Source: Bacteroidota bacterium (GTDB lineage: Bacteria; Bacteroidota; Ignavibacteria; Kryptoniales; JAKASW01). From it: DNA of 64,000 nt. The first letter of the stretch is position 1. Each line of letters begins with the position of its first letter. This document shows positions 34,321 to 50,532 of the stretch, piece by piece. Both the position numbers and the translations under genes were made by a program. The notes beneath the pieces are model-generated. The model was not told the DNA's origin. It did not search any database and worked only from the letters and a program-made list of their open reading frames with translations. The stretch is from NCBI GenBank assembly GCA_021789975.1, contig JAJYIT010000006.1, positions 62,001 to 126,000 on the forward strand, written 5' to 3'.

Positions 34321-35508
34321 TCAGAAATACGTCTCCAGCTTCAAGTAATATGCTTGTGGATAGTACCAGTATTCAGTAAATGTCTTTCCATATGTGTAGA
34401 GAGTACCGACCGAGAACGAAGTATTGTCGCTGGCTGAATAACTGATTGTCCCGGCGAGGTAGCCGCTGCCGTCGTTGAAATTGGAAATGGACGATGCCAT
34501 CACCGTCGTGAGGGCAGTAAGCTGGTACGTTGCACTTAAGGCAAGATAGTCTTCCGCGAGATTCAGTATTCGTCCTTCATAAAGCCCGGTCAAGTTATAG
34601 TCGAACCGGTTGAGAGTTCCTTCTCCGTTGTGATAATACTCGAACAAGCCGTATAACCTGCTGGTAAATTGGTAGTCCATTCCAAGTATCCAGTTTACAT
34701 AGTAGCCGCCGGATTTCGATGGGTCCTGCGACACAAGTCCTTCACCTCTTATCCCTGCCGTCCATACATTCCCGGCAAAGTCGCCTCCGGTTATGACTCT
34801 TCTGTCCAGCAATCCTGCAAGCACCGCGAGGTCATACCCGATGATGTTGGTTCTGAATCTCGCGGCGTAGTTTGAGGTGAAGAAATGATACTCGGCGTTA
34901 TAAACAAGCTGCAAGTCCGTCAGTTGCCCGAGATAAAATGTCATCGACGCGGCATCAGCACCGTCTTTTTCAATCTTACCGAAATCGGCTGGATTGATTG
35001 GATTAAAGATGTCGGTTGGGTTCCACACGCGACCTGTTCCCCAGCTTATTCGCTGCCTTCCCAACACAAGTTTGCCGCTTGCCCCATTGGGGAACGAGAA
35101 TTCCTGGTCGAGGTACAGTCGGTCGATATAATCGGAAATTGAGCCATGGTCACCTGATAAGGGATGCCAGTGCAAGCTGACGACCTGTCGAAGTGGAGTG
35201 GTGGAAGCAAGACCGATCGTTGCGCTCCCTGAGTAATAGAGTCCGTCGATTTCGTATTCGAGACCGATCTTGGTGTTGTCGCCGAGATGAAGAGTCGGGC
35301 GAAGTCGCAACCTGGTCAGACTCGCGAATTCAGAATTCGACATATCTGCGAGCCGTGCAAACGAAGGCTGGATACTTTCGTAGACCGGCATCTCCATGAC
35401 ATAGCCGGAGAAGTCGAGGGAAGTCTGTGCGTTCCCTTTGGGGGCAAAGAATATTAAACACAGAGACACCGAGACAACGGAGTGAATTGAATGATGAAGG
35501 GAGGTCAC
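34321..35508 (-). CDS. Outer-membrane beta-barrel protein, last gene of the Lol-like operon
   Basis: 395 residues from GTG 35508. The signal peptide core (VVSVSLCLIFF) and the upstream GGAG are encoded inside a short inverted repeat (35456-35526), so the start appears recruited from a repeat. The mature part alternates like a porin-type barrel and ends in YLKLETYF. I do not recognise a precise family; it resembles DUF1302/alginate-export-like barrels. Its operon position suggests it is the outer-membrane end of the transporter or its client. Confidence 0.65.
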   Translation of the reverse strand: MTSLHHSIHSVVSVSLCLIFFAPKGNAQTSLDFSGYVMEMPVYESIQPSFARLADMSNSEFASLTRLRLRPTLHLGDNTKIGLEYEIDGLYYSGSATIGLASTTPLRQVVSLHWHPLSGDHGSISDYIDRLYLDQEFSFPNGASGKLVLGRQRISWGTGRVWNPTDIFNPINPADFGKIEKDGADAASMTFYLGQLTDLQLVYNAEYHFFTSNYAARFRTNIIGYDLAVLAGLLDRRVITGGDFAGNVWTAGIRGEGLVSQDPSKSGGYYVNWILGMDYQFTSRLYGLFEYYHNGEGTLNRFDYNLTGLYEGRILNLAEDYLALSATYQLTALTTVMASSISNFNDGSGYLAGTISYSASDNTSFSVGTLYTYGKTFTEYWYYPQAYYLKLETYF

Positions 35509-35528: not shown

Positions 35529-36236
35529 TTATTGATTTGTCTTGTCGGTCACAATATGCCCGTCCTTCAAGATCAGCAGTCTGTGTGCACGCTCGATAAC
35601 TTGCGGGTCATGGGATGAGAACACGAATGTTATTCCTCCTTCATGGTTCAGCTTCTCCATGAGTTTGAGAAGCTTGATGGCGGTCCCGGAATCGAGATTG
35701 GCAGTTGGTTCGTCAGCGAGAACAAGCCTGGGATCATTTGAAATCGCTCTCGCAACAGCAACCCGTTGCTGCTGTCCTCCGCTCATTTCGTTGGGACGCT
35801 TGTGCGCGAGCTCGGCAATCCCAAGCTGTTCCAGCAGGGCCATCCCCCTACGCTTTCGTTCACGGGCATCGATTCCGCGGAGCATCATGGTGAACTCGAC
35901 ATTTTCAAGAGCGGTCAACACCGGATTGAGATTATACGCTTGAAACACGAAGCCGATTTTCTTCAAACGGATCCCGGCAAGTTCGCGGCGAGTTTTCGAT
36001 GCAACATTTTCACCGTCGAGAATAATCTTGCCATCGCTGGGTTTGTCGAGTGTACCGATGATATTAAGTAGGGTCGTTTTGCCTGAACCGGAAGGGCCGG
36101 CAATTACGGAGAAATCGCCCGGCGAAACGGCAAGACTTATTCCTCGAAGTGCGTTAACCGGCACACCGTTGTCATGGTACACTTTTGTTACGTCTTCAAC
36201 GCGGATTATCTCTGTTCTGGCTACTTGTGAATCCAT
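35529..36236 (-). CDS. LolD/MacB-type ABC transporter ATPase
   Basis: 235 residues. Walker A GPSGSGKTT, signature MSGGQQQRVAVARA and Walker B LVLADEPTANLD are complete, and the length and TLDKPSDGKI region fit the LolD/MacB class. It would drive the two FtsX-type permeases encoded upstream, extracting lipoproteins or other substrates from the inner membrane. It lies 34 bp after the second permease. Confidence 0.88.
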   Translation of the reverse strand: MDSQVARTEIIRVEDVTKVYHDNGVPVNALRGISLAVSPGDFSVIAGPSGSGKTTLLNIIGTLDKPSDGKIILDGENVASKTRRELAGIRLKKIGFVFQAYNLNPVLTALENVEFTMMLRGIDARERKRRGMALLEQLGIAELAHKRPNEMSGGQQQRVAVARAISNDPRLVLADEPTANLDSGTAIKLLKLMEKLNHEGGITFVFSSHDPQVIERAHRLLILKDGHIVTDKTNQ

Positions 36237-36270: not shown

Positions 36271-37503
36271 TTAGATCGATCTTATCGCATCAACCGGATG
36301 AAGCCGAATGGCTTTCATCGCCGGGTAAACTGATCCAATCACTGTCACAAAGGGTATTATGACAGCGGCCTTGATGACATCAGAACCCAATAGGATAGGG
36401 AAGATCTTCGAGCCCGATCCCCATGATCTGAGACTCGCGGCGAACATAGATAAGTCCCATCCGAATCGTGAAAGATCGAGGCAAGTGAAGTAAGCAATTA
36501 CGAGGCCAACTATGGTCCCCGCTATCCCAAGAAGAAAAGCCTCGACAAGAATCATCCTGAAGATCTTCCCATTTGACATTCCGACAGCCATCGCTACTCC
36601 GAACTCGTGCGTTCGTTCCAAGACTGCCATAAGCATGACATCGATTATTCCGAAGATCAGTGCAATTGCTATAATTCCATATACGACGTAGAACATCTGG
36701 TCGTAAAAACCCAGCTGCATGACGAAAAGGGGAAGCATTTGCTCATAGCTCATGATTTCGTATCGGTTGGAAGGACCGCTGACTGCCTGAAGTTCTTTCC
36801 GGAGGCTGTCTAACACAACCGGCATCATGGTCCGGCGAACCGGATCGATCACAAATTCGGAAACCATGTTGCGGACATTCAGCATTTGCCTTAGTGTTTG
36901 AATCGAAGCGTAAACGTGAGTTTGATCGAACCCTGAATTGGATGTCTCATAGATACCGCATACCCGGCAGCCTTCAGATCCGATATTGCCGTCTGGCTGT
37001 GAAGCCATGATCACCACCTTATCCCCGAGCCCGGCTTTCAGTTTTTCGGCAATAGCGGTGCTGATAATTATCTGGTTCGTCCCGTCGCCTAGATACTCTC
37101 CCTTGACGATGTATTGGGATATTGTTGTGATTTTCTTTTCTTCATTCGGTATAATTCCTACTATCGAAACCCCTGCGGAATTGTAGGCGCTGCAAATTAG
37201 TCCGTATGTCCGAAGACGCTCCGAATACCGAAGCATAGTCGAATCACCTTCAAGCATTTCTTTTATTAGTCCTGGCGATTCTATCGAGTTATCGATGCCG
37301 GGATCGGCCTGGTAGCCTGGCTTATGAATTTGTATGTAGCCTACATCAGTCCCGATCTGGTTCGTAAGCATCTGTTCCATGAACCCGCGGACAAAAGCGC
37401 GGGCCAAGATCAGCGCAAAAACGCCGACCACGATCGAAGCAGTCAATATCAGAGACCGTCGTTTATTCCTGAGTATGTTACGCCAAGCTATCTTGCTAAT
37501 CAT
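36271..37503 (-). CDS. FtsX-type ABC permease, LolC/E-like (second)
   Basis: 410 residues. One N-terminal membrane segment (SLILTASIVVGVFALILA), a ~220-residue periplasmic domain of the MacB type, then three C-terminal segments. ISKIAWRNILRNKRRS and the final YPAMKAIRLHPVDAIRSI are hallmarks of LolC/E-like permeases. It probably pairs with the 37691-38938 product and the LolD-like ATPase. It follows a repeat element of ~160 bp. Confidence 0.85.
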   Translation of the reverse strand: MISKIAWRNILRNKRRSLILTASIVVGVFALILARAFVRGFMEQMLTNQIGTDVGYIQIHKPGYQADPGIDNSIESPGLIKEMLEGDSTMLRYSERLRTYGLICSAYNSAGVSIVGIIPNEEKKITTISQYIVKGEYLGDGTNQIIISTAIAEKLKAGLGDKVVIMASQPDGNIGSEGCRVCGIYETSNSGFDQTHVYASIQTLRQMLNVRNMVSEFVIDPVRRTMMPVVLDSLRKELQAVSGPSNRYEIMSYEQMLPLFVMQLGFYDQMFYVVYGIIAIALIFGIIDVMLMAVLERTHEFGVAMAVGMSNGKIFRMILVEAFLLGIAGTIVGLVIAYFTCLDLSRFGWDLSMFAASLRSWGSGSKIFPILLGSDVIKAAVIIPFVTVIGSVYPAMKAIRLHPVDAIRSI

Positions 37504-37690: not shown

Positions 37691-38938
37691 TTAAGTGTAC
37701 CTTATTCCTTTGAGTGGTTCGAGCCTGAGCACCCGCCAGAGTGGATAGAACATCGAGACAAATGAAATAATAAGAATTGCCGCCGAAGTCAGTACGGAAG
37801 TGCCGGTGGATACAGCGGACGTAATTACCGGGACATTGAATCCGTACTGCTCGTAGATTTGCGCCAGATTCCCTCCGATGACTATCGGATGCGCAAAGAT
37901 ATAGTAGCTGATTCCCACTCCCAACAGATTGCCGCAGAAAATTCCGATGATGATCATGAAGAATATTTCGAGGGCGGCTGTTGCCGCCAGTGTTTCGTGT
38001 TGCATACCTAGCGACAGAACGATGCCGTATTCCCTGAATCTCTCGGTAACGGACATGAGAACTGCATTGAGAATACCAAATCCGACTACCACCAGGAGAA
38101 TTATCATGAAGACGAAGTCTCCACTCTGTTTAAACTCCAGCGTCTGTTCCATTTGAGGTATGAGGGTCTGCCATGGTACAGCGACGAGACCGGTTGGTTT
38201 TAACACTGCGTTGAGCTGGGCTGTAACTTCGGGCACATCGTCCATATTGCTAACGGATATCGCAACCGCATTAACCCGGTCGTCCATCGAAAGAAAAGGC
38301 TGCAGGTCTGTTATTTCCATGAAGGCGCCCATCCGGTCGAACTCGTCGGAGCCCGTTCTAAACGTGCCGACAATCCGTGCATACATGTTGTTCAACACGC
38401 CGTCAAATCCTTGGCAGAGGACTACGACGGAATCGCCGATCCCTGCCCTCAAGTTCCGAAGGAGTGTGTATTCGAGAACAATTTCGGGGACCTTGCCTCG
38501 ATGGTCGTCCCCCGATGATAGAAAATGGCCGGCCGATATTTTGTTTTGAAAATCAGTTATCGCCCTTTCCTGGTCAGGCGAGATTCCCATTATCATGACG
38601 CCCACCGAATGATCTTTGTAACTGACGAGTCCATCCGCCTGGATTCGCGGTGAGCTGCCGCTGACAAGTGGGTTCTCGTCTATTAGTTTCCTTAGTTTGC
38701 GGGAAAACACGAAGCTCTTCTGCAAAGTTGGATTGTCCACATATCCTGGTTTTTGGATCTGGATGAGACCGGTTGAGAGCCGGGCGGCATCATTTATTGC
38801 CTCCGAGATTGTCCCATTGTCGACATTCATCTTTATCATTGTTAGGGAAGCAGCGAACGTAATTGCCGCGATGACGAGGAAGGATCGTCTCCGGTTCCTC
38901 CAGAGACTTCGCCAGGCTATTTCAATGAGTAGATACAA
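37691..38938 (-). CDS. FtsX-type ABC permease, LolC/E-like (first)
   Basis: 415 residues with the same four-segment plan as its neighbour. IEIAWRSLWRNRRRSFLVIAA begins the first membrane segment, and FYPLWRVLRLEPLKGIRYT ends the protein. The large periplasmic loop lies at ~45-280. It and the next permease probably form a heterodimer, as LolC and LolE do. It follows the LolA-like gene. Confidence 0.85.
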   Translation of the reverse strand: MYLLIEIAWRSLWRNRRRSFLVIAAITFAASLTMIKMNVDNGTISEAINDAARLSTGLIQIQKPGYVDNPTLQKSFVFSRKLRKLIDENPLVSGSSPRIQADGLVSYKDHSVGVMIMGISPDQERAITDFQNKISAGHFLSSGDDHRGKVPEIVLEYTLLRNLRAGIGDSVVVLCQGFDGVLNNMYARIVGTFRTGSDEFDRMGAFMEITDLQPFLSMDDRVNAVAISVSNMDDVPEVTAQLNAVLKPTGLVAVPWQTLIPQMEQTLEFKQSGDFVFMIILLVVVGFGILNAVLMSVTERFREYGIVLSLGMQHETLAATAALEIFFMIIIGIFCGNLLGVGISYYIFAHPIVIGGNLAQIYEQYGFNVPVITSAVSTGTSVLTSAAILIISFVSMFYPLWRVLRLEPLKGIRYT

Positions 38939-39074: not shown

Positions 39075-39818
39075 TTATTTTTCCAATTCCCTCAATGAGA
39101 AGATGCTGTTCGGAATCCTTGTGTCAAATGATGCTTTCTCCATTACTATCTCGGTAGAATGAGTTTTGTCGGCGTTGTACATCGTCCAGTCTGTCGGAAT
39201 TACGCGCCCGCCCATTTCTCTGAATTCGCTCATTATCATCGTGCGCATCAACTTCCCCTTTTCATCGAAGTATTCTACCTGCGCCGGCAGGTTGTCTATT
39301 GTTCTCACCCAGTAGAGGAGTTTCCCCCATACGACAGGAGCGTTCGGCTTCGGAATTAGCTGCAGCTCCCAGCATTCAATGTTGTCCAATCTATCGGTAC
39401 CGACTATAGTGATGTTATAATCCTTTACGAGTGTTTCTTCGCGTACCATGTCATCATAAGTGAAATCGGACCCGTTCCATGATTGCAGCATCATGGATGG
39501 CGGAATTCGAATAGTCGTCTCGGTGTTCCTCAAATACATCCAGACGTCGTTCCCGAGTTTGAGTGTGCGGTTGCCTGCTTCGCGGGCAGGAGAAAGGATA
39601 TTCACGAGCGCTTTCGAATCGCCGATTGACCAGCTTTCCATTTTCATACTTCGTGTATAATCGGGAGTCGTGATTGTCATTTCCACTATGGAATGGCTGG
39701 ACGATTTACCTTTTATCGCGTCTTCCGCTTTCCGAACAATTTGTTTTGGGTCCTGTGAATATGCACTGCTCGTGATCGCGCCGATAATCAAAACAAGGAT
39801 TGACAAAACGCGTTTCAT
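39075..39818 (-). CDS. Outer-membrane lipoprotein-sorting protein, LolA-like
   Basis: 247 residues with a signal peptide ending in SAYSQ. The beta-rich body has MTITTPDYTRSMKMESWSIG, LKLGNDVWMYLRNTETTIRI and a C-terminal EFREMGGRVIPTDWTM. This matches the LolA-like family found with LolCDE-type exporters and RND lipid exporters. It probably carries a hydrophobic substrate across the periplasm. It follows tetR by 19 bp and so is part of the regulated operon. Confidence 0.8.
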   Translation of the reverse strand: MKRVLSILVLIIGAITSSAYSQDPKQIVRKAEDAIKGKSSSHSIVEMTITTPDYTRSMKMESWSIGDSKALVNILSPAREAGNRTLKLGNDVWMYLRNTETTIRIPPSMMLQSWNGSDFTYDDMVREETLVKDYNITIVGTDRLDNIECWELQLIPKPNAPVVWGKLLYWVRTIDNLPAQVEYFDEKGKLMRTMIMSEFREMGGRVIPTDWTMYNADKTHSTEIVMEKASFDTRIPNSIFSLRELEK

Positions 39819-39837: not shown

Positions 39838-40443
39838 TCATTTTTGAGCTTTGATTCCTTCCAGAATCAGTTTGACGCCACCCCGAAGCTGCTTTTCGAA
39901 ATCTATTTCTATTCCGAGTGACCAGAAAAGCGCCGCACCTTCGATAATCTGGTATATCGCAAGAGTAACCTGGTATGGATCGACCCGTTTGAATTCTTTA
40001 TTCTTAACTCCATCCTTGATTATCGATTGCAGAAGCGTTACACCCGAGAAAAAATCGCGCTTCACCATCTTCTTGATTTTTTGATCTCTGAAAGCAATGG
40101 CGTACAGTTCCTGAATTACCGGTCTGAAACGCTGGATCTTCTTCATAGCCTCCTCTATGTAATCGACAAACCTGTCAATTCGTTCTCGTGCGGTGCCGCT
40201 CGAGAGCAATTGCTCTATCCTTTTAATCTCGTTTGGGTCGAAAAATTCATTGAGCAACTCCGCGATTATCTCGTCCTTGCTCTTATAGTACCAGTAAATG
40301 GCACCCTTGCTCATGCCGGACTCATGGACGATGTCGTTCATGCTCGTTCCCTTCAGTCCGGTTCGGGCAAATGCAGTAATCGCGGCTTTCATGATTTGCT
40401 CTTTGCGTCTGGCAATATTTTCTACGCTTACTTTCCTGGGCAT
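39838..40443 (-). CDS. TetR-family repressor of the Lol-like operon
   Basis: 201 residues from ATG at 40443. A longer frame (to 40518) would run through the promoter and operator, so it is rejected. Residues ~15-60 are the TetR helix-turn-helix (MKAAITAFARTGLKGTSMND, SGMSKGAIYWYYKSKDE). The C-terminal ligand domain is divergent, as usual. It lies directly behind a perfect palindrome and heads the operon, so it probably represses itself and the exporter until an inducer binds. Confidence 0.9.
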   Translation of the reverse strand: MPRKVSVENIARRKEQIMKAAITAFARTGLKGTSMNDIVHESGMSKGAIYWYYKSKDEIIAELLNEFFDPNEIKRIEQLLSSGTARERIDRFVDYIEEAMKKIQRFRPVIQELYAIAFRDQKIKKMVKRDFFSGVTLLQSIIKDGVKNKEFKRVDPYQVTLAIYQIIEGAALFWSLGIEIDFEKQLRGGVKLILEGIKAQK

Positions 40444-40444
40444 A

Positions 40445-40472
40445 TTTATAAACCGACCGGTCGGTTTATAAA
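40445..40472. promoter_or_regulatory. Perfect 28-bp palindromic operator for the TetR regulator
   Basis: TTTATAAACCGACC (40445-40458) is followed directly by its exact complement. It lies just downstream of the -10 hexamer and ends two bases before the tetR ATG, covering the expected transcription start and leader. ACCGACCGGTCGGT-type centres are typical of TetR operators. Confidence 0.9.
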
Positions 40473-40473
40473 T

Positions 40474-40502
40474 AAGATAGGCGTTTCCTTTGGATGAGTC
40501 AA
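40474..40502 (-). promoter_or_regulatory. tetR/Lol-like operon promoter
   Basis: On the minus strand TTGACT (40502-40497), a 17-bp spacer, and TATCTT (40479-40474). The start point would fall about seven bases inside the palindrome. No Shine-Dalgarno fits between it and the ATG. Confidence 0.75.
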
Positions 40503-40602
40503 GCGCACAGAAACTCACTTCAAAAGATCTCTCCGACTATCTGCAGGGGAAATGGTGAATTGTTGGCTGTGAGCTGAATATCGGTAAGTCTTTGCGGGAG
40601 TA

Positions 40603-41847
40603 TTAATTATCGAAGTTGGCGATTACAATACTCGCGGCGTTTCCGCCGAAGCCCGCTGCATTAATCATCACTTTCCTGATCGACCGCCTCTTGTTCGATA
40701 TGCTGACCGGATAAGGAAACTCCATGTAGTCGTCATTTGCAATAATCATGAGACCATATTCGAGACTCAAGGCAGCAGAAGCACCGAAGGTGTGTCCGAT
40801 CAACCACTTGTTCGACAGCAAAATGGGGAGGTGCTCACCGAATGCGGACCGCACAGCGTTCAACTCACTTCGGTCACCCTTTATTGTACCAGGCGCGTGC
40901 ATGATAACAGCGTCTACACTGCTTCCGGCTGGCAGACCCTCCAGTGCCATCGCCATCGACTTCTTTAGCGCTGTTCCATCTTCGGTCATATCCGTTGCGT
41001 TCGACGCCTGGTCGATCCCATAGCCAAAAGATTCCACGATACCGAGGATCCGCTGCGACTCGTTTCCGGCAGGCGCTTCCGGAACTGGTTCAAGCGTAAA
41101 GAGCGCGGCGCCTTCTCCGAGGACGAAAGTGTTGTGCTGGGGTGATTTGGATGAGAGGGGACGACAGGGATAATCGGATCCTGAATCTCTTGAATAAATT
41201 CTGAGTGCTTTCATCTGTGCCACTGTGAATCCGGTGAGCGGTGCTTCTGCTGCGCCGACGATAAACCTGTCGGAAAGTCCTCCCCGAATCCAGGCGATTC
41301 CATTCATGATGGCGTGCAGCGCAGTGCTGCAAGTGACGGAATGACTTATCTCGGGACCTTCTGTTCCTATATCGTGTGCTACGAAGCTTGAAATATTTCC
41401 GAGGGTAGTTGTCGGTGAAGTAAGAGGTGAAATCCTTCGAGAGGGATCCTGCAAGTACGATGCGTGCTGTCTTTCAAGGACCCCCGTTGCGCCGCGTGAT
41501 GACCCGATGTTGACTCCGGTTCGTTCGGCATTGTCAGACAATTTCCATCCGGCCTGGGCAACGGCCTGGCGAGCACAGTGCGCAGCCATCAGAACTGTCC
41601 TGTCAAGGTGACCGCCGATCGGTTCTTCAAGGGAGATAGCTTTCAGGATGTCTTCCGAATCTTCGGCCAGACTCGCAACCGGTACGGTTGTACCATCAAA
41701 CTCCCTGGGTTTGATGAGCGACTCCATTTGCCGGTAAGACTGCCACACCTGTTTGCCGGTGTGGCCTAGCGGCGAAATCGACCCGACCCCCGTGATCGCT
41801 ATGAACAATTTCGGATTGCGCAATCCGGATTGTGCATCTTGAGTCAC
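40603..41847 (-). CDS. Beta-ketoacyl-ACP synthase-like protein in the biotin operon
   Basis: 414 residues, thiolase fold of the FabF/KAS II type. The catalytic triad is present: Cys173 (VTCSTALHA), His317 (MHAPGTIKGD) and His352 with Lys347 (NKWLIGHTFGAS). The first His motif is APGT rather than the usual HGT pattern. The start overlaps bioA by 4 bp. It probably helps build the pimeloyl precursor, replacing or feeding a BioC/BioH-like route that is not encoded here. This role is inferred from context. Confidence 0.8.
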   Translation of the reverse strand: MTQDAQSGLRNPKLFIAITGVGSISPLGHTGKQVWQSYRQMESLIKPREFDGTTVPVASLAEDSEDILKAISLEEPIGGHLDRTVLMAAHCARQAVAQAGWKLSDNAERTGVNIGSSRGATGVLERQHASYLQDPSRRISPLTSPTTTLGNISSFVAHDIGTEGPEISHSVTCSTALHAIMNGIAWIRGGLSDRFIVGAAEAPLTGFTVAQMKALRIYSRDSGSDYPCRPLSSKSPQHNTFVLGEGAALFTLEPVPEAPAGNESQRILGIVESFGYGIDQASNATDMTEDGTALKKSMAMALEGLPAGSSVDAVIMHAPGTIKGDRSELNAVRSAFGEHLPILLSNKWLIGHTFGASAALSLEYGLMIIANDDYMEFPYPVSISNKRRSIRKVMINAAGFGGNAASIVIANFDN

Positions 41848-43115
41848 AAACTATCCAGCATTGAAATGAGAGTTGTGTACACTTTGTCTAATTCGTGATC
41901 GGTAATACAGTACGGCGGGATTAGATACATGACGTTTCCAAGCGGTCTGACAATTATTCGATGGTTGATACAGAAGTCGTTCATTCGGTCTCTCAAAGAA
42001 TTGAGATAGCCGGTGTCTTCATCTCCTATCGCATCAAACGCAACAATAGTCCCAATTTGTCGGACATTCTCTGCCCGAGGATGTTTAATCAGTCTTGAGG
42101 CAAATTGCTTATGTCTAAGAATAATTCTCGCGATGTTTTTCCATGTATCATCCTCTTCCATCAAATCGAGGCTCGCCAGAGCGGCCGCACACGCCACCGG
42201 GTTGCCCGTGTAGGAATGACCGTGAAAAAAACTTTTCCGTTTGTCGTCCGACAGGAAGCCATTGTAGATATACTCTGTGCATGAGGTTGCGCCTAATGCC
42301 ATGGTTCCTCCTGTCAAGCCCTTCGACATGCAGATGATGTCCGGTTTGTTCTCTAAGAAATCGGAGGCGAAGAATCTTCCGGTTCGTCCGAAACCCGTAA
42401 ATACTTCGTCGGCAATCGTCGGGATTTCCTGTTTGCTGCATGTGGCCAACATCTTGTCGAGCGGCTCCGCATCGTACACTATCATCCCACCTGCGCCTTG
42501 AAGAAGAGGTTCGAAAATGAAGGCTGCAACGTCCTGTGTGCTAAGGGCGCGGCTCAACCCGGAAATAGAAGCCTCTTCGTTCCCTTTGGTGGGCGTGGGG
42601 ATTCGGATGACTTCAAAAAGTAAATCCCGGAATGGTTCGGTGAATAAATCTCTGACGCTTACTGACATTGCCCCGAAAGTATCGCCATGGTACGAATTGC
42701 TGAGAGCGATGATCTTTCGCTTCTTTATTCCACGATTATACCAATACTGCAGAGCCATCTTGATTCCAACTTCGACTGCGGTAGAACCGTTATCTGAATA
42801 AAAGACCTTCGATTGATTTGATGGGAGGACTTTCACGAGTCTTTCTGCAAGCTCAACAGCAGGCTCATGTGTGAAGCCGGCAAAAATCACGTGCTCTAAC
42901 TTGTGAAGTTGGTCGGCAACCTTTTGTGCAATGTACGGATGCGCATGACCATGGATATTCACCCACCATGATGAAATTGCATCGATGTACTCGTTTCCAC
43001 TCTCGTCGTATAATCTTGCGCCTTCGCCGCGAACTATGGGGATCGGAGAGCGTGCTGTCTTCATCTGGGTATATGGATGCCAGATAACCCGCCTGTCCCG
43101 GTCGATAAGCTTCAT
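41844..43115 (-). CDS. bioA: Adenosylmethionine-8-amino-7-oxononanoate aminotransferase
   Basis: 423 residues, class III aminotransferase. HPYTQMKTA near the N-terminus and the SWWVNIHGHAHPYI segment mark BioA; the PLP lysine is in CMSKGLTGG. It makes 7,8-diaminopelargonate using S-adenosylmethionine as amino donor. Its start overlaps the bioD stop by 4 bp. Confidence 0.93.
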   Translation of the reverse strand: MKLIDRDRRVIWHPYTQMKTARSPIPIVRGEGARLYDESGNEYIDAISSWWVNIHGHAHPYIAQKVADQLHKLEHVIFAGFTHEPAVELAERLVKVLPSNQSKVFYSDNGSTAVEVGIKMALQYWYNRGIKKRKIIALSNSYHGDTFGAMSVSVRDLFTEPFRDLLFEVIRIPTPTKGNEEASISGLSRALSTQDVAAFIFEPLLQGAGGMIVYDAEPLDKMLATCSKQEIPTIADEVFTGFGRTGRFFASDFLENKPDIICMSKGLTGGTMALGATSCTEYIYNGFLSDDKRKSFFHGHSYTGNPVACAAALASLDLMEEDDTWKNIARIILRHKQFASRLIKHPRAENVRQIGTIVAFDAIGDEDTGYLNSLRDRMNDFCINHRIIVRPLGNVMYLIPPYCITDHELDKVYTTLISMLDSL

Positions 43116-43741
43116 CTTCGGAATTCCCTTCTGAGCGCCTGTGCGTATCGAGCAACCATCTGACGGTCGATAATCCTTTCCTCATAAATGAAGCCGATGG
43201 GTCTTATCCCTGAGAATCGTGTTATGAAATCTGTTGAAGATTGAACGGGCCCTCCGTTGAAGATAATTCCATTGATTGGCAACCCGCGCCTTTTCAGAGC
43301 CTCCACGGTTAGCAGTGTATGATTGATAGATCCCAGATAATTTCGTGATACGATGATGGCTTCGGCGCCAAGGGCGGCTATCATGTCTATCATCAACGCG
43401 GAGTCATTGACCGGCGACATAATTCCGCCAGCGCCCTCGATAATAAGGTCGCGTCCCAGCGTAAATGGGATTGATTTACTTATTGCGTCAAGTTCAATCG
43501 TGATTCCATCGACAGCCGCAGCCGCATGAGGAGACATCGGTTGCGTAAGCCTGTAAAGTTCCGGGTGAAGGAACGATTTGGAGTTCGAAACCAACCGCCT
43601 CACATTCTCAGTGTCCGAGTTGTCGAGATCTCCTGCCTGGATGGGTTTCCAGTAATCTGCGTCGAGTGCTTCCGCAAGGATTGCTGATACGACGGTTTTG
43701 CCGACACCCGTCCCTATCCCCGTGACGAAAATCCTTCTCAT
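43112..43741 (-). CDS. bioD: Dethiobiotin synthase
   Basis: 209 residues. The P-loop GIGTGVGKTVVSA is at residues 7-19 and IIEGAGGIMSPV is the second nucleotide-binding element. It closes the ureido ring of dethiobiotin with CO2 and ATP. It overlaps bioF and bioA by 4 bp each. Confidence 0.92.
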   Translation of the reverse strand: MRRIFVTGIGTGVGKTVVSAILAEALDADYWKPIQAGDLDNSDTENVRRLVSNSKSFLHPELYRLTQPMSPHAAAAVDGITIELDAISKSIPFTLGRDLIIEGAGGIMSPVNDSALMIDMIAALGAEAIIVSRNYLGSINHTLLTVEALKRRGLPINGIIFNGGPVQSSTDFITRFSGIRPIGFIYEERIIDRQMVARYAQALRREFRR

Positions 43742-44874
43742 GTTAGCGCAGTATTAAGAGTGTGGATCAGGTTTCCGATCTCCTCTTCAGTGTTGAACGC
43801 GTGGATGCAAATCCTGATCCTCTCCGATCCCGCCGGTACTGTCGGGTGCATGATGGGACGGACATCAAATCCTCCACTGCGTATATCGTTTGCCACTTTC
43901 TTGACGTTTCTATTCCCGGGTTTAAGAAGAGATCGAATGGCGCTATCACTCCCGATGAAATTACTCTTCAAAGGTTCGTCCAGTTGGCTATTGAAAATCG
44001 ATATCAGATGTCGGAGTCGGCGGCAGGGCGTGTAATCGGAAATCAAGAGTTTGTATGCGTAATGAATCGCTGCGAGGCTGTGAAAAGGGAGAGCGGTTGT
44101 ATAAATGAATGGTCGCGCAAAATTCACGAGATATGAACGAAGAGTCTCTGATCCCAGAATAACCGCTCCATGTGCGCCGAGCGCTTTGCCGAAAGTGTGG
44201 ACACGTGCGAATACGGCATCCTGAACGTCAAGCTCGACAACTCTCCCTTCGCCGTTCTCTCCGAAGACTCCAGTAGCATGGGCCTCGTCGACCACAAGGT
44301 TTGCTCCATGACTGCTGCAAAGCTGCGCTATTTCCCTTAGAGGCGCGGAGTCGCCGTCCATCGAATACACTGATTCAACGGCAACATAAACATTTCCAGT
44401 TGCCTGATTCAATCTTCGTTCAAGATCGTCGAGGTCATTGTGTCTGAATGTGAAAGAGCGGGCATATGAAAGGCGAATGCCGTCTCTGATAGAGGCGTGT
44501 ACAAGTTGATCGTACAGAACTGTGTCCGTTCTTTGAGGGATTGATGAGAAGATTCCCAGATTAGCATCGTACCCTGAATTGAAGATGAGGCCGGCCTCCG
44601 CATGGTGAAACTCCGCAACTTTATTTTCCAGCTCTTCGCAGTATTTCGAATTACCTGAAATCAGCCGTGAACCGGTCGATCCTATCTGCATATCCGGAAG
44701 CCGGTCGATCTCGGCTCTTATATTCTCCTTGAGCTCGTGGGATCGGGAAAATCCGAGGTAATCGTTAGAACAGAAATCAATTAGTCCTGAAGGGGTCGTC
44801 AGAGCGCGGATCGAGCCATCCGATTTTCTTTCATCGAGCGCGCGAACAAGTTGGTTGATTGCTTCAGACGGCAT
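43738..44874 (-). CDS. bioF: 8-amino-7-oxononanoate synthase
   Basis: 378 residues, alpha-oxoamine synthase. [36 protein letters not shown] and the PLP lysine in [12 protein letters not shown] are all present. It joins pimeloyl thioester and alanine. It overlaps the end of bioB by 11 bp. Confidence 0.93.
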
Positions 44875-45859
44875 TTTCTTCTTTGAATGGCTTGCGCGGC
44901 CTAAGTCCTAGTGCTGAAAAGAGCTCTTTGTCTTTGTCGATAGTCTGGTTTGGTGTGGTTAGCAACTTGTCTCCTGCGAAAATTGAATTTGCGCCGGCAA
45001 GGAAGCAAAGTGCCTGCGCTTCCAGACTCAGTTGCATCCTTCCCGCGGAGAGTCTAACCATCGACTCCGGCATGAGTATCCTGGCGGTCGCTATCATCCT
45101 GACAAAGTCCCATGGACTTACCGGAGAACGGTTTTGAAGAGGCGTCCCTTCAACCGCAACAAGCCCGTTTATTGGAACGGATTCCGGGTGAGGATCGAGG
45201 TTCGCAAGAGTCATCAGCATTTCCATCCTGTCCTCTTCCGATTCTCCCATCCCGATAATTCCACCACTGCAGACAGTAATCTCCGCACGGCGAGTGTTCT
45301 TTATCGTATCGATGCGATCCCGGTAGGTCCTCGTTGTGATGATACTTTTGTAGTAGCCCGACGATGTATCGAGATTGTGGTTGTAAGCATACAAACCGGC
45401 ATTCTTGAGTTTCCTCGCCTGATCTTCTGTAACCATTCCGAGAGTCGCGCACACTTCCAGACCGAGATCGTTCACTTCCCGGATCATTTCGAGAACTCTG
45501 TCGAAGTCCTTGTTGTCTCTCACTTCTCGCCAGGCCGCTCCCATGCAGAACCTAGTCGCACCGGATGCCTTGGCATCACTTGCTCTTTTGACGACTTCGT
45601 CCACCTGGAGCAGCGGTCGCGCCTCCACTCCGGTATCGTATTCGACGGATTGCGGACAGTACGCGCAATCCTCGGGACAGCCGCCGGTCTTTATCGAAAG
45701 AAGGGAGCAAACTTGAACTTCGCCAGGGTCGAAGTATGTCCTGTGAATGGTCGAAGCTTGGTACACCAGATCAAGAAGAGGCAGTCGGTAGATGGTAAAG
45801 ACTTCCTCTTTTTTCCAGTCGCACCTAATCTCGCATCTGATGGTTTGATTTGAATCCAC
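44864..45859 (-). CDS. bioB: Biotin synthase
   Basis: 331 residues from GTG 45859, with GGAG nine bases upstream. The radical SAM cluster motif is [13 protein letters not shown], and [12 protein letters not shown] and [13 protein letters not shown] are typical of BioB. It inserts sulfur into dethiobiotin. First gene of the bioBFDA-ketosynthase operon. Confidence 0.94.
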
Positions 45860-46425
45860 CTAAGATCTCTCCGAATTGGTGATAGGCAAGCAGGAATCTC
45901 ATTGAAAATATAACGACAAGCGTGGGATAGTGAAAGGGAACGGAGTACAATTGTAACTGAGCGGTTACCTCTCGAATGGCGGAGAACTTGACTGTAGGGC
46001 ACATCGAGTTAGATTTCTTCTGCTATCAGCCGAATGTCAGGGACGGCAACGACAGATATAGTGCCCCATAAAGTCCTCAATCATGACTTAGGACCGAGAT
46101 TCGAATGAGCTCACCATATGCAAGCGATGCTGGTCTAATACCGATGAAAGTATCGATTCGCTGAGGTAATTCAGACTTGTTTGTTTCTGCAGTGACCCCC
46201 GGTAAGAGAATGTTTGGGATGACAAATGTCTCCGTAGGAAGGGGGGCACGAGAGATTTGAACCTGCTTTCGATCGAGTTCAGGAGTCTGATGCGTGCATT
46301 CAAGAAGATTCCCATTGAGAATTGAAATTGCATATACACTCAATCAGTAATACGGATAATCTTGCAGAAGGCACTGGCGCAGTGCTGAAGACACTTGCCC
46401 TGGGGACAAACGGGTGGAAAGGACG
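45860..46425. other. Intergenic region between bioB and the kinase locus
   Basis: No convincing gene. It holds a short inverted repeat 90 bp before bioB, a tRNA-3'-end-like string on the minus strand (46241-46265) and a 6-bp hairpin GCACTG/CAGTGC near 46368. Confidence 0.5.
45953..45968. promoter_or_regulatory. Candidate operator upstream of bioB
   Basis: GTAAC-N6-GTTAC inverted repeat about 95 bp before the bioB start. Its half-sites recall part of BirA boxes, but the spacing is much shorter than the usual 14-16 bp, so BirA binding is doubtful. Confidence 0.25.
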
Positions 46426-46575
46426 ATGGAGAGATCGGTCCACCATTACAGCATCCTGGACAAGCTCGGCAATCCTCGCATATTGGCAGTATGGTGCGGA
46501 CCCGACCTTGCCGATGCTCGGTCGAGTGCACATGTACGCCGAATGTCAATTCCATTAGCACGGAACTCTCAATGA
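46426..46575 (+). CDS. Small 49-codon frame coupled to the kinase start; possible kinase remnant
   Basis: ATG 46426 (AAAGGA just upstream) to TGA 46573-46575, which overlaps the kinase ATG as ATGA. Its start (MERSVHHYSILDKLG) resembles the kinase start (ILHYRIIEKLG), and the DNA is similar over ~28 bases. After that it diverges. It is either a leader peptide that couples translation or the scrap of a duplicated kinase 5' end. Confidence 0.4.
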   Translation: MERSVHHYSILDKLGNPRILAVWCGPDLADARSSAHVRRMSIPLARNSQ

Positions 46576-49190
46576 TCGGGGACACCATATTACATTACAG
46601 AATCATCGAGAAGCTCGGCGAAGGCGGTATGGGGGTTGTTTACAAAGCCGAGGATATCTCCCTCAAGCGGATAGTTGCGCTGAAGTTTCTTCCGCGCGGA
46701 CTCAGCAGCGATATCGAGTCCAGAAGTCGCTTTGTCCAGGAGGCGCAGGCCGCCTCTGCTCTTCAGGACAACAACATCTGCACGATCCATGATATCAGTA
46801 AGACTGACGATGAAGAGATGTTCATCGTGATGGACTGCTACGGGGGCGAATCCCTGAAGGAGAGAATATCTCGCGGACCGTTGAAGAACGACGATGCATT
46901 AGAGGTTGCCGTCCAGGTTGCCAAAGGACTATCTAAAGCCCACGAGAAAGGCATAATTCACCGGGATATCAAGCCGGGAAATATTTTCATAACAAACGAT
47001 GGTGTGGTCAAGATACTCGACTTTGGCCTGGCAAAGGCATCAGGAAGGACACAGCTGACACAGGTCGGCTCGACTGTCGGTACATGCAACTACATGTCTC
47101 CCGAACAGGCAAGAGGGGACGAGGTCGATGGAAGAACAGATATCTGGTCGTTGGGAATCGTACTGTACGAGATGCTAACCGGTGTACCCCCATTCAAATC
47201 CGATTACGATCAGGATGTCACCTACTCGATAGAGAACCGGGAGCCGGACTTGGCAAGAATTCCTGCGGAGCTGCTTCCGATTTTGCAGAAGGCCCTTGCA
47301 AAGTCGCCCGCTGATCGATATCAAAAGATCGAAGAGATGTTGTCGGACATCGACCGCGCACGAAACAGAGTTGTCGGCGGAAAAGGTTTTTACCCCAGCG
47401 GGCACAGGGTTCGCCGGATGAAATTGCGCACGAAGCTTTCCTTCACTGCCAGCCTTGTCGCTCTACTGGCGTTCGCCGCCGTCTATTATTTCAGAGTTGT
47501 CGTCAAACTGGATACTCCGAACGCTGCCGCGACCAATAGTATGAAAATGATCGTGGTCCTTCCGTTTGAAAACCTCGGTTCTCCTGACGACGATTATTTC
47601 GCCGAAGGGATGAGAGATGAAATTTCAAACAGGCTTTCCGCACTGGGTTCAATGGGAGTAATCTCGAGGGGCAGCGCGGAGAAATGTGCGCACACGAAGA
47701 AGACCGCGAGGGAAATCGGGAGGGAGCTGGGCGTCGATTATATACTCGAAGGAACCATTCAGTGGGCAAGAGGAAAAAGCAAAGAGAGTCGCGTAAGAAT
47801 CTTTCCACAACCGGTACGGGTGTCGGATGACATAAATATCTGGTCGGACTCATACGACCGGGTGATAAACGACGTATTCCAGGTGCAGGGCGAGATAGCT
47901 CAGAACGTTGTCAGCAAACTTGGGATCAAATTAGTGCCGGGTGAACAGGTTGCCGGACCACCGCCCACTAACAACCTGGACGCGTATGACTATTATCTTA
48001 AGGCTCTGAAATTTCATTACGGCCCGTCCACAGGATCTAACATAAAGACCGCTGTGAAGCTGTACCAGCAAGCGATTGCCCTGGATTCGAACTTCGCCGC
48101 CGCGCACGCTCAGCTTTCAATTGCGTACAACGGATTGTTTTTCTGGTGGTGGGACAGGGACAGCTTGAATCTCAAGAAAGCTGCCCGGCATTTAAGCAAG
48201 GCAGAGCGGATTGATCCGAACATTGCGGAAGTACACCTGGCGAAGTTCTATTACTACGCCAGGTTCACGAGCGACACGGAAAAAATATTTCAGGAATTGA
48301 AAAACACACTTGAGATCCAACCCAACAACGCCGAGGCGAACATAGAGATCGCCTATTACTACCGAGACAGGGGACAGGTTGAACTTGCACGGAAGAGTGA
48401 ATCCAAAGCCGTTCAGTTAGATCCGTTGAATGCCCGTTATCCATCGATGCTCGGTGGACAATGCAATTCCAGAAGAGAATACAAGGACGCGGAACAATAC
48501 TTCAAACGAGCGATTGAGCTGAGTCCCGCCACTAGTGGTTACTATGTGGCTCTCGCTCAGAACTATGTGGACCTAAATGGCTCCACAAGACTCGCGTGGG
48601 AAGCCGTTAAGAACATAAAAGATGACGAGTACGAGGAGGACAATAGCAATATCTTTGTCTATTTGAGTGTGTTGGACCGGGACTTTGATAAAGCCATGTC
48701 GATATTGAAGTCATCTCGGAGAGAATACAGGAACGTGGCGCAAGCTTATATGTCCAGTTTGCAGATGATCGCGCTCATATACAGATACCAGGGGAATTAC
48801 GGACTTGCGAGGAAATATTTCGATTCTTCAAAGGTGAAGATAGAAAAACTGATCGCCACTTCTCCAAAGGATTTTCGTCTCCCATTGTCACTGAGTATCA
48901 GTTATGCCGGCATTGGTGAGAAAGAGAGGGCTCTCGGTCAACTTGAAAAAGGGATAAAGCTGCTCGACTGGTATGAAGACAAAGCGTGGATCGACCATAA
49001 TCGGAAAATATATCTGGCTCAAATATCTATCCTGGTCGGTGATCATGAAACCGCTTTGAAACAGATTGAGGCCTTGGTTTCAACGAAAGTGGCATTTTTC
49101 TCCGTCAACAGGATGAAGCTTGATCCATTGTATGACCCGCTCCGGAATCTGCCGGAGTACAAGAAGATAATAAAGGAGAATTCGGGTTAG
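46572..49190 (+). CDS. Membrane Ser/Thr protein kinase with TolB-like and TPR domains
   Basis: The start at ATG 46572 is chosen because kinases of this family begin just before HYRIIEKLGEGGMG; the longer upstream frame is rejected. Domains: PknB-type kinase (~8-270) with LGEGGMG, catalytic Lys38 (VALKFL), HRDIKPGN and LDFGLAKA; a membrane segment at ~290-310; a TolB/FlgO-like domain at ~330-460 (IVVLPFENLGSPDDDYFAEG); then many TPR repeats to the end. It probably senses an envelope signal and phosphorylates unknown targets. Confidence 0.9.
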   Translation: MIGDTILHYRIIEKLGEGGMGVVYKAEDISLKRIVALKFLPRGLSSDIESRSRFVQEAQAASALQDNNICTIHDISKTDDEEMFIVMDCYGGESLKERISRGPLKNDDALEVAVQVAKGLSKAHEKGIIHRDIKPGNIFITNDGVVKILDFGLAKASGRTQLTQVGSTVGTCNYMSPEQARGDEVDGRTDIWSLGIVLYEMLTGVPPFKSDYDQDVTYSIENREPDLARIPAELLPILQKALAKSPADRYQKIEEMLSDIDRARNRVVGGKGFYPSGHRVRRMKLRTKLSFTASLVALLAFAAVYYFRVVVKLDTPNAAATNSMKMIVVLPFENLGSPDDDYFAEGMRDEISNRLSALGSMGVISRGSAEKCAHTKKTAREIGRELGVDYILEGTIQWARGKSKESRVRIFPQPVRVSDDINIWSDSYDRVINDVFQVQGEIAQNVVSKLGIKLVPGEQVAGPPPTNNLDAYDYYLKALKFHYGPSTGSNIKTAVKLYQQAIALDSNFAAAHAQLSIAYNGLFFWWWDRDSLNLKKAARHLSKAERIDPNIAEVHLAKFYYYARFTSDTEKIFQELKNTLEIQPNNAEANIEIAYYYRDRGQVELARKSESKAVQLDPLNARYPSMLGGQCNSRREYKDAEQYFKRAIELSPATSGYYVALAQNYVDLNGSTRLAWEAVKNIKDDEYEEDNSNIFVYLSVLDRDFDKAMSILKSSRREYRNVAQAYMSSLQMIALIYRYQGNYGLARKYFDSSKVKIEKLIATSPKDFRLPLSLSISYAGIGEKERALGQLEKGIKLLDWYEDKAWIDHNRKIYLAQISILVGDHETALKQIEALVSTKVAFFSVNRMKLDPLYDPLRNLPEYKKIIKENSG

Positions 49191-49223: not shown

Positions 49224-50532
49224 ATGGGAAAAGGGAGCATGGTACTTCTTGTTTGCATTATTGCCGGGCTGCAAGATACGCTTGCGCAATCGACCACAGC
49301 CAACCTGGAAGGCTGGATACTCGACGCGAAGAATCAGCCGGTCATTGAAGCAATTGTGCAGGTAAGTTCACCGGACCTTCAGGGAGTGCGTGGGACAATA
49401 ACCGACGAACATGGTTACTTCCGAATCCCGGCATTGCCAGTAGGAATCTACTCCGCCGGTATAAGTCACGTATCATATCAGCAAGTTACCATCAAGGGCA
49501 TCCGCCTGCGGCTCGGACAAACGATCACGGTCGGAGGAATCCATATGATGGAACAGGCAATAACGACAAACGAGGTGGTGGTATCGGGAAGCAAGCCTGC
49601 TATGGACGTACGGTCCTCCGCTGATGATCAGGTGTTAACCGCCAGCGAGTTCCGCCAGCTTCCTATTGAGCGTAATTATTTTCACATCGCGGAATTGCTG
49701 CCCAATGCAAACGCCAGCTACAAGAGCGATGGTGGTACAAACTTCGCTGGAGCAACAGGGGAGGAAAACAGGTACTTCATTGACAGATCCGAAGTGACAG
49801 GAGTTGAGATGGGGGTCCTGAGATATGATTTGCCATATAATTTTGTTAGAGAGGTTGAAATTCGAACCGGCGGGTACCAGGCTGAATATCAGAGTGCTTT
49901 AGGTGGAGTCGTAAACACGATCACCTATTCCGGAAGCAACGAATTTCACTCCTCGATATTTGGTTTTTTAACCAACAACGATTTCAGCAAGGCACCAAGA
50001 CTATCTGCCGGTCAACCGCCAAAGGGGGATTACGGTAACTACGATATCGGCTTCGGACTGGGAGGCCCGATACTGAAAGACCGGCTTTGGTACTATGTCG
50101 CCTACGATCCGAGTGTTGTATTCGAAGATGTCTATGTGAATGGACCGGGGATGCAAAGCAGCTGATTGACATATCACAAGTTTGCCGGCAAACTCACCTG
50201 GGATGTCGATGAAAGGAACCTGTTGGCGTTGTCAGTGTTCGGTAATCCATATTCAGGCCGCCAGGTTGCACTTGGGAATATCGACCCTCAATTTAATGTG
50301 ATGAATCCGGAAGCTGTCAACAGAAACGTGGCTTATTTAATTTCTGATGCCGCCGTCAGGGGAATCCATAACATCAGCGGCAACTTCATACTTGAGTCAT
50401 CTCTTTCCATGAGCATTATGAAAGTCAAGATAACCCCGACCTCGGCACAAGGAGCTGAGCCGACCTTCTTGGATTACACAAACGGAACCGCTTCAGGAGG
50501 ACTGGGATTTACGGAATTGAATCCGTATCGCG
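49224..50532 (+). pseudogene. Decayed TonB-dependent receptor, N-terminal part
   Basis: Signal peptide (to DTLAQ), CarboxypepD_reg-like domain (~28-115), plug (~130-240; ELLPNANASYKSDGG, YFIDRSEVTG) and the first barrel strands. TGA at 50163-50165 interrupts the frame after GPGMQSS; the same frame then continues (TYHKFAGKLTWDVDERN) to about 50530. There it is fused to the mature start of a T9SS cargo in another frame. Several hundred barrel residues are missing. It is the third TBDR of the 8125 subgroup. Confidence 0.85.

Follow-up and report, generated by a model that had tools for sequence, protein, structure and literature searches.

Organization of the tetR-led export locus

On the minus strand of the 64,000-nucleotide stretch of DNA analysed here (the window), a gene for a TetR/AcrR-family repressor is preceded by a sigma-70-like promoter and a long perfect palindrome, and is followed by five genes for a putative envelope export module. 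The features of the locus are as follows.

40502-40497, minus strand: -35 box, TTGACT (the 12 other promoters in the comparison all have TTGACA)
40474..40479, minus strand: -10 box, TATCTT, preceded by a 17-bp spacer
40443..40474, minus strand: perfect 32-bp palindrome TATTTATAAACCGACCGGTCGGTTTATAAATA, predicted TetR operator, spanning the predicted +1
40452..40465, minus strand: 14-bp operator core ACCGACCGGTCGGT
40444..40467, minus strand: predicted mRNA leader, 24 nt, wholly operator sequence; start taken as the seventh base downstream of the -10 box
39838..40443, minus strand: tetR, TetR/AcrR-family repressor of 201 aa (PF00440, E 5.8e-15)
39075..39818, minus strand: LolA_like periplasmic carrier (PF17131, E 3.3e-56)
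37691..38938, minus strand: permease 1, type VII ABC (MacB_PCD + FtsX), LolC/E-like (103.6 bits; LolCE cut-off 362.45)
36271..37503, minus strand: permease 2, type VII ABC, LolC/E-like (110.7 bits; LolCE cut-off 362.45)
35529..36236, minus strand: ABC ATPase, LolD/MacB-like (217.1 bits; LolD cut-off 307.75)
34321..35508, minus strand: outer-membrane beta-barrel with a predicted porin/AlgE-like fold (AlphaFold2 pLDDT 89.8)

The helix-turn-helix domain of the regulator (TetR_N, PF00440) scored 55.2 bits against a cut-off of 24, and the solved structure closest to the protein by sequence is YfiR (1rkt). The start of tetR is backed by the N-terminus M-P/T-R-K, which is conserved in relatives; a 226-aa version beginning at an upstream GTG was rejected, its extension being the operator read through and differing between relatives. 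The gene content given in the first-pass annotation, i.e. a LolA-like carrier, two permeases, an ATPase and a barrel, was recovered as stated, with the barrel confirmed by its predicted structure. The carrier matched PF17131 at 190.3 bits (cut-off 30) and has solved relatives in 9tp6, 3buu, 4z48 and 3bk5. The window barrel had no Pfam match, DUF1302 (PF06980) included, which was matched by one of 32 relatives at E 0.0014; a Foldseek search with its model returned AlgE, MOMP and porins (E about 1e-8, TM about 0.55). Shine-Dalgarno sequences are present at lolA_like, permease 1, the ATPase and the barrel. At tetR, as the first-pass annotation had noted, none precedes the ATG, though most genes of the operon and the window have one.

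A biotin-type cluster (40603-45859; bioB, bioF, bioD and bioA by sequence) reads towards tetR, with a FabF-like ketoacyl synthase (KAS) gene last. According to the ORF list, the product of 46395-49190 joins an N-terminus resembling Ser/Thr protein kinases to a C-terminal part rich in repeats; the gene after it, at 49224, is TonB-receptor-like, and its N-terminus is carboxypeptidase-regulatory-like.

A perfect palindrome over the predicted transcription start

Read along the minus strand, the control region has the order TTGACT-N17-TATCTT-ATTTATAAACCGACCGGTCGGTTTATAAAT-ATG, and the palindrome takes in the final T of the -10 box at one end and the A of the tetR ATG at the other. The promoter is the sole sigma-70-like match in 40380-40720, where 0.3 would be expected by chance, in agreement with the earlier reading; the palindrome is likewise perfect, over 32 bp and into the ATG instead of the 28 bp first described. 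The next longest in the window measures 16 bp, and about 1.5e-5 perfect palindromes of 32 bp would be expected in 64 kb. The inverted repeat lies directly 3' of the -10 box and overlaps the inferred +1, which is the placement of QacR-IR1-type operators, and its 32-bp symmetry would permit two dimers to bind, as in that type. Judged from the sequence, the palindrome is most probably a DNA operator placed over the predicted +1 of the tetR promoter in the manner of QacR IR1. Its extent past an 18-20-bp core is common to the close relative G006, where it is kept through two mirrored pair changes; this additional symmetry may reflect either selection or quasi-palindrome correction during replication.

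Phylogenetic footprint of the tetR promoters

The nearest named relatives are Candidatus Kryptoniota/Bacteroidetes MAGs, and a strong lolA_like match was found in 10 of the 13 genomes of the genus. The footprint was drawn from 13 homologous tetR promoters in the genus, 12 of them distinct (the rows for G010 and G012b are identical). TTGACA-N17-TATCTT and the dyad are kept across these promoters while the spacer letters are random: conservation reached 1.93 bits per column in the -35 box, 1.74 in the -10 box and 1.75 in the 18-bp dyad core, but only 0.38 within the 17-bp spacer and 0.42 in the upstream sequence. The distance from the end of the -10 box to the dyad centre is 15 bp in 12 of the 13; the exception, G008, combines an N16 spacer with 16 bp to the centre, leaving the distance from the -35 box to the centre unchanged. 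From the dyad centre to the ATG, the distance is 15, 18, 19 or 26 bp, and AAGGAG or GGAG lies between dyad and ATG in four of the five sequences with 26 bp. Fixed spacing to the promoter together with variable spacing to the ATG indicates that the element is held relative to RNA polymerase and not to the ribosome start. In the window species and in G006 the ATG abuts the dyad with no space for a Shine-Dalgarno sequence; the abutment seen in the window is a local extreme of the operator-over-+1 placement.

Changes within the dyad are mirrored across it, with the central pair going from CG to TA in G006 and G008 and pair 5 changing in one genome. The dyad of G008 is altered (TGACTGACTAGTCAGTCA / TTGACTGACTAGTCAGTCAA), and the regulator of the same genome carries an altered recognition helix, SKGLLYW in place of SKGAIYW. 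The dyad before tetR is conserved and keeps its place relative to the promoter, where a TetR/AcrR-family regulator would bind a palindromic operator near its own promoter. The earlier proposal of a tetR-led operon, probably autoregulated, with its predicted operator over the predicted start is supported.

Counting against the operator model, one close relative of the window tetR (L068:556-1179) keeps the recognition-helix residues SKGAIYW although its promoter lacks the ACCGAC palindrome. This gene leads a double module, which has an additional ABC set and one more LolA_like gene.

A second complete promoter-operator unit (TTGACA-N17-TATCTT, AAACCGACCAGTCGGTTT) was observed at L051 (reverse complement, about 4036), at L043/L046 and in relative G007. 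It sits 332 bp ahead of the tetR unit, has no tetR behind it and is followed about 100 nt downstream by a strong inverted repeat; its spacer is identical at about 14 of 17 positions to that of the G002 tetR promoter. It may be a remnant of a replaced tetR or belong to a short TetR-controlled RNA.

Copies of the operator core in the genome and phylum

The first-pass annotation had suggested searching the genome for other copies of the palindrome. In the 4.7 Mb genome (85 contigs) the 14-bp core occurs exactly once, and sites with one or two mismatches are at the level of a reversed control pattern (13 vs 10). ORF lists around the three loci with one mismatch contained no tetR-type ORF. A regulon was rejected on these grounds; the single exact core and the control-level near-matches point to a regulator that, as far as sequence can tell, looks like a local autorepressor without one.

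Across the phylum, the core was found in 10 of 395 genomes. Among its eight loci outside the genus, only one (L065) adjoins a tetR start and most others fall within or at the edge of an ORF; the core was accordingly rejected as a general operator of the phylum.

Proposed mechanism and alternative readings

The regulatory design, as read from the conserved promoter sequences, is in all likelihood ordinary TetR autorepression from an operator over +1. One TetR dimer, or two, would bind the dyad over the start of the sigma-70-type promoter and block RNA polymerase, and TetR would in this way limit its own synthesis as well as that of the export genes behind it. The repressor would be freed by a ligand that is probably hydrophobic and linked to the cargo, whereupon the operon would be transcribed from a start inside the operator. 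What the analysis establishes is the operator sequence with its conservation and spacing, its single genomic copy and the conservation of the operon; we infer that TetR binds and represses, where transcription starts, that there is an inducer, and that lipids or lipoproteins are exported. The description of the operon as a "complete" and "inducible" export route is plausible.

With the predicted start, the leader would be very short and made of operator, as first proposed, because the operator lies over +1 and the ATG follows at once in this species; at about 24 nt it is too long for the accompanying description as nearly leaderless. Its predicted fold is a hairpin of 7 bp closed by a CCGG loop. 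The first-pass annotation also envisaged control at both the DNA and RNA levels, in which the transcribed operator, as a 5'-terminal hairpin, would tune translation or stability of the tetR mRNA besides repression at the DNA; one palindrome would then set both repressor synthesis and repression. A leader hairpin of 7 bp with a 4-nt loop is indeed part of the minimum-energy structure, given the predicted start, in 10 of the 13 promoters, and the window leader is devoid of a Shine-Dalgarno sequence. Such an RNA hairpin is, however, a by-product of a DNA dyad; in four relatives the Shine-Dalgarno sequence lies downstream of the predicted hairpin and is not fully sequestered, the distance from dyad to ATG is unconserved, and the symmetric change of the central pair sits in what would be the unpaired loop of the RNA. 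Once the outer left arm is removed, moreover, the leader is about as stable as shuffled sequence (z -1.4 or weaker). A central pair mirrored within the loop, a Shine-Dalgarno sequence outside the hairpin and ordinary stability together favour the DNA dyad over the RNA. The DNA part of the dual-control proposal was retained, the dyad being locked to the -35 and -10 boxes and not to the ATG; a special RNA role was not, and appears unlikely.

The operon might also be read mainly by read-through from the upstream biotin-type cluster, with the palindrome acting as a roadblock or having little effect. The KAS and bio genes lie on the same strand with a gap of about 160 bp to tetR, and a search for a terminator between them and tetR found no terminator-like site, so that read-through could bypass the operator. 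Against this stand the strong conservation of the -35/-10 pair and the finding that the KAS neighbour was not seen beside the module in relatives, which make read-through as the main source of transcription very unlikely. A long perfect inverted repeat could in addition belong to a mobile element or a terminator and be unrelated to TetR. The exact core is nevertheless single-copy in the genome, no T-run follows the palindrome, its distance to the promoters of orthologous tetR genes is fixed, its changes are symmetric and its core matches a tested TetR-type operator; this explanation is almost certainly wrong.

Conservation of the module and exchange of its regulator

The export module was found in Kryptoniota, Ignavibacteria, Melioribacteraceae, Kapabacteria and Calditrichota. 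The order lolA_like-permease-permease-ATPase-barrel is kept in almost every locus of sufficient length; variants include four permeases in several Kryptoniota and a barrel ahead of lolA_like in a few loci. In the genome studied, a second LolA_like gene with a LolC/E-like permease forms a paralogous set elsewhere (G000 C74:38670-40549). A co-directional TetR leads the module in Kryptoniota and in single loci labelled Calditrichota, Bacteroidetes, Kapaibacterium and unclassified bacterium, a divergent TetR is present at the module in many Melioribacteraceae and Ignavibacteria, and a GbsR-like protein leads it at 10 loci. The motif TGACTGAACGTTTAGTCA or a close variant, read as another TetR-type operator, occurs in 18 loci, nearly all of them with a divergent TetR; its centre is 9-10 bp downstream of the -10 box in a module promoter of the TTGACA-N16/17-TANNTT type. 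In 894 kb there are 19 copies, every one of them upstream of the module. The position of this motif over +1 at divergent-TetR loci suggests that operator-over-+1 placement is common to different TetR types.

In the library searched for TetR operators that are leaderless or overlap the start, and for LolA-like ABC operons, no description of the module was found. The switch is familiar in type, and the conserved, uncharacterised export module is the part worth following. For an uncultured lineage, the locus offers an operator-promoter footprint with good support, and natural variants are at hand in the changed dyad and helix of G008, the divergent TetRs and the GbsR-like replacement; the defined 32-bp operator is a direct handle for the inducer and, through the inducer, for the cargo.

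Comparison with known systems

The module resembles LolCDE-LolA and other type VII ABC systems (MacAB, YbbAP-TesA, Aat) in its two FtsX-type permeases, LolD-like ATPase and LolA-fold carrier. It differs from LolCDE-LolA in that the permeases and the ATPase fall far short of the curated cut-offs for LolC/E and LolD, the carrier belongs to PF17131 and not to PF03548, and a dedicated barrel and a TetR are attached. The genome keeps, separately, a LolCE-type pair (C37:256664-259128), its best, which at 288 and 261 bits is likewise below the cut-off of 362.45, and a single PF03548 match (C33:133005-133481); this pair and LolA are the likely housekeeping route. The operon is separate from these candidates, and the earlier view of a route distinct from housekeeping Lol is upheld. 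By its sequence the module may well be a further route for exporting hydrophobic cargo to the envelope, with family resemblance alone suggesting cargo and direction. The predicted Borrelia export cluster BBJ23-29 differs in having an Omp85-family barrel and TPR chaperones, whereas the barrel here is porin/AlgE-like (PMC13078400). In the monoterpene efflux system AmeABCD of Castellaniella, an outer-membrane protein (DUF1302) and a LolA-superfamily periplasmic protein, comparable to those encoded here, serve an inner-membrane exporter of hydrophobic compounds (PMC6394551); that pump is of the RND type, whereas an ABC transporter is encoded here, and a weak DUF1302 match is confined to one barrel relative.

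On the regulatory side, the 14-bp core is identical to the functional operator of the TetR-type regulator PaaR (PMC2770484, PMC9493321), whose inverted repeat was shown by mutation to be needed for negative control of paaA in Burkholderia cenocepacia (PMC2770484). The PaaR sites lie between the -35 and -10 boxes of phenylacetate catabolic genes, whereas the core here lies over the predicted +1 of an export operon. The QacR IR1 operator of Staphylococcus aureus is directly downstream of the promoter and overlaps the start (PMC3617543), and is bound by two QacR dimers (PMC3617543, PMC3022030). The likeness lies in a TetR-family repressor of an exporter and a large inverted repeat over the start (PMC3617543, PMC3022030); IR1 controls qacA, whereas the predicted operator described here precedes the repressor's own gene, the first of the operon.
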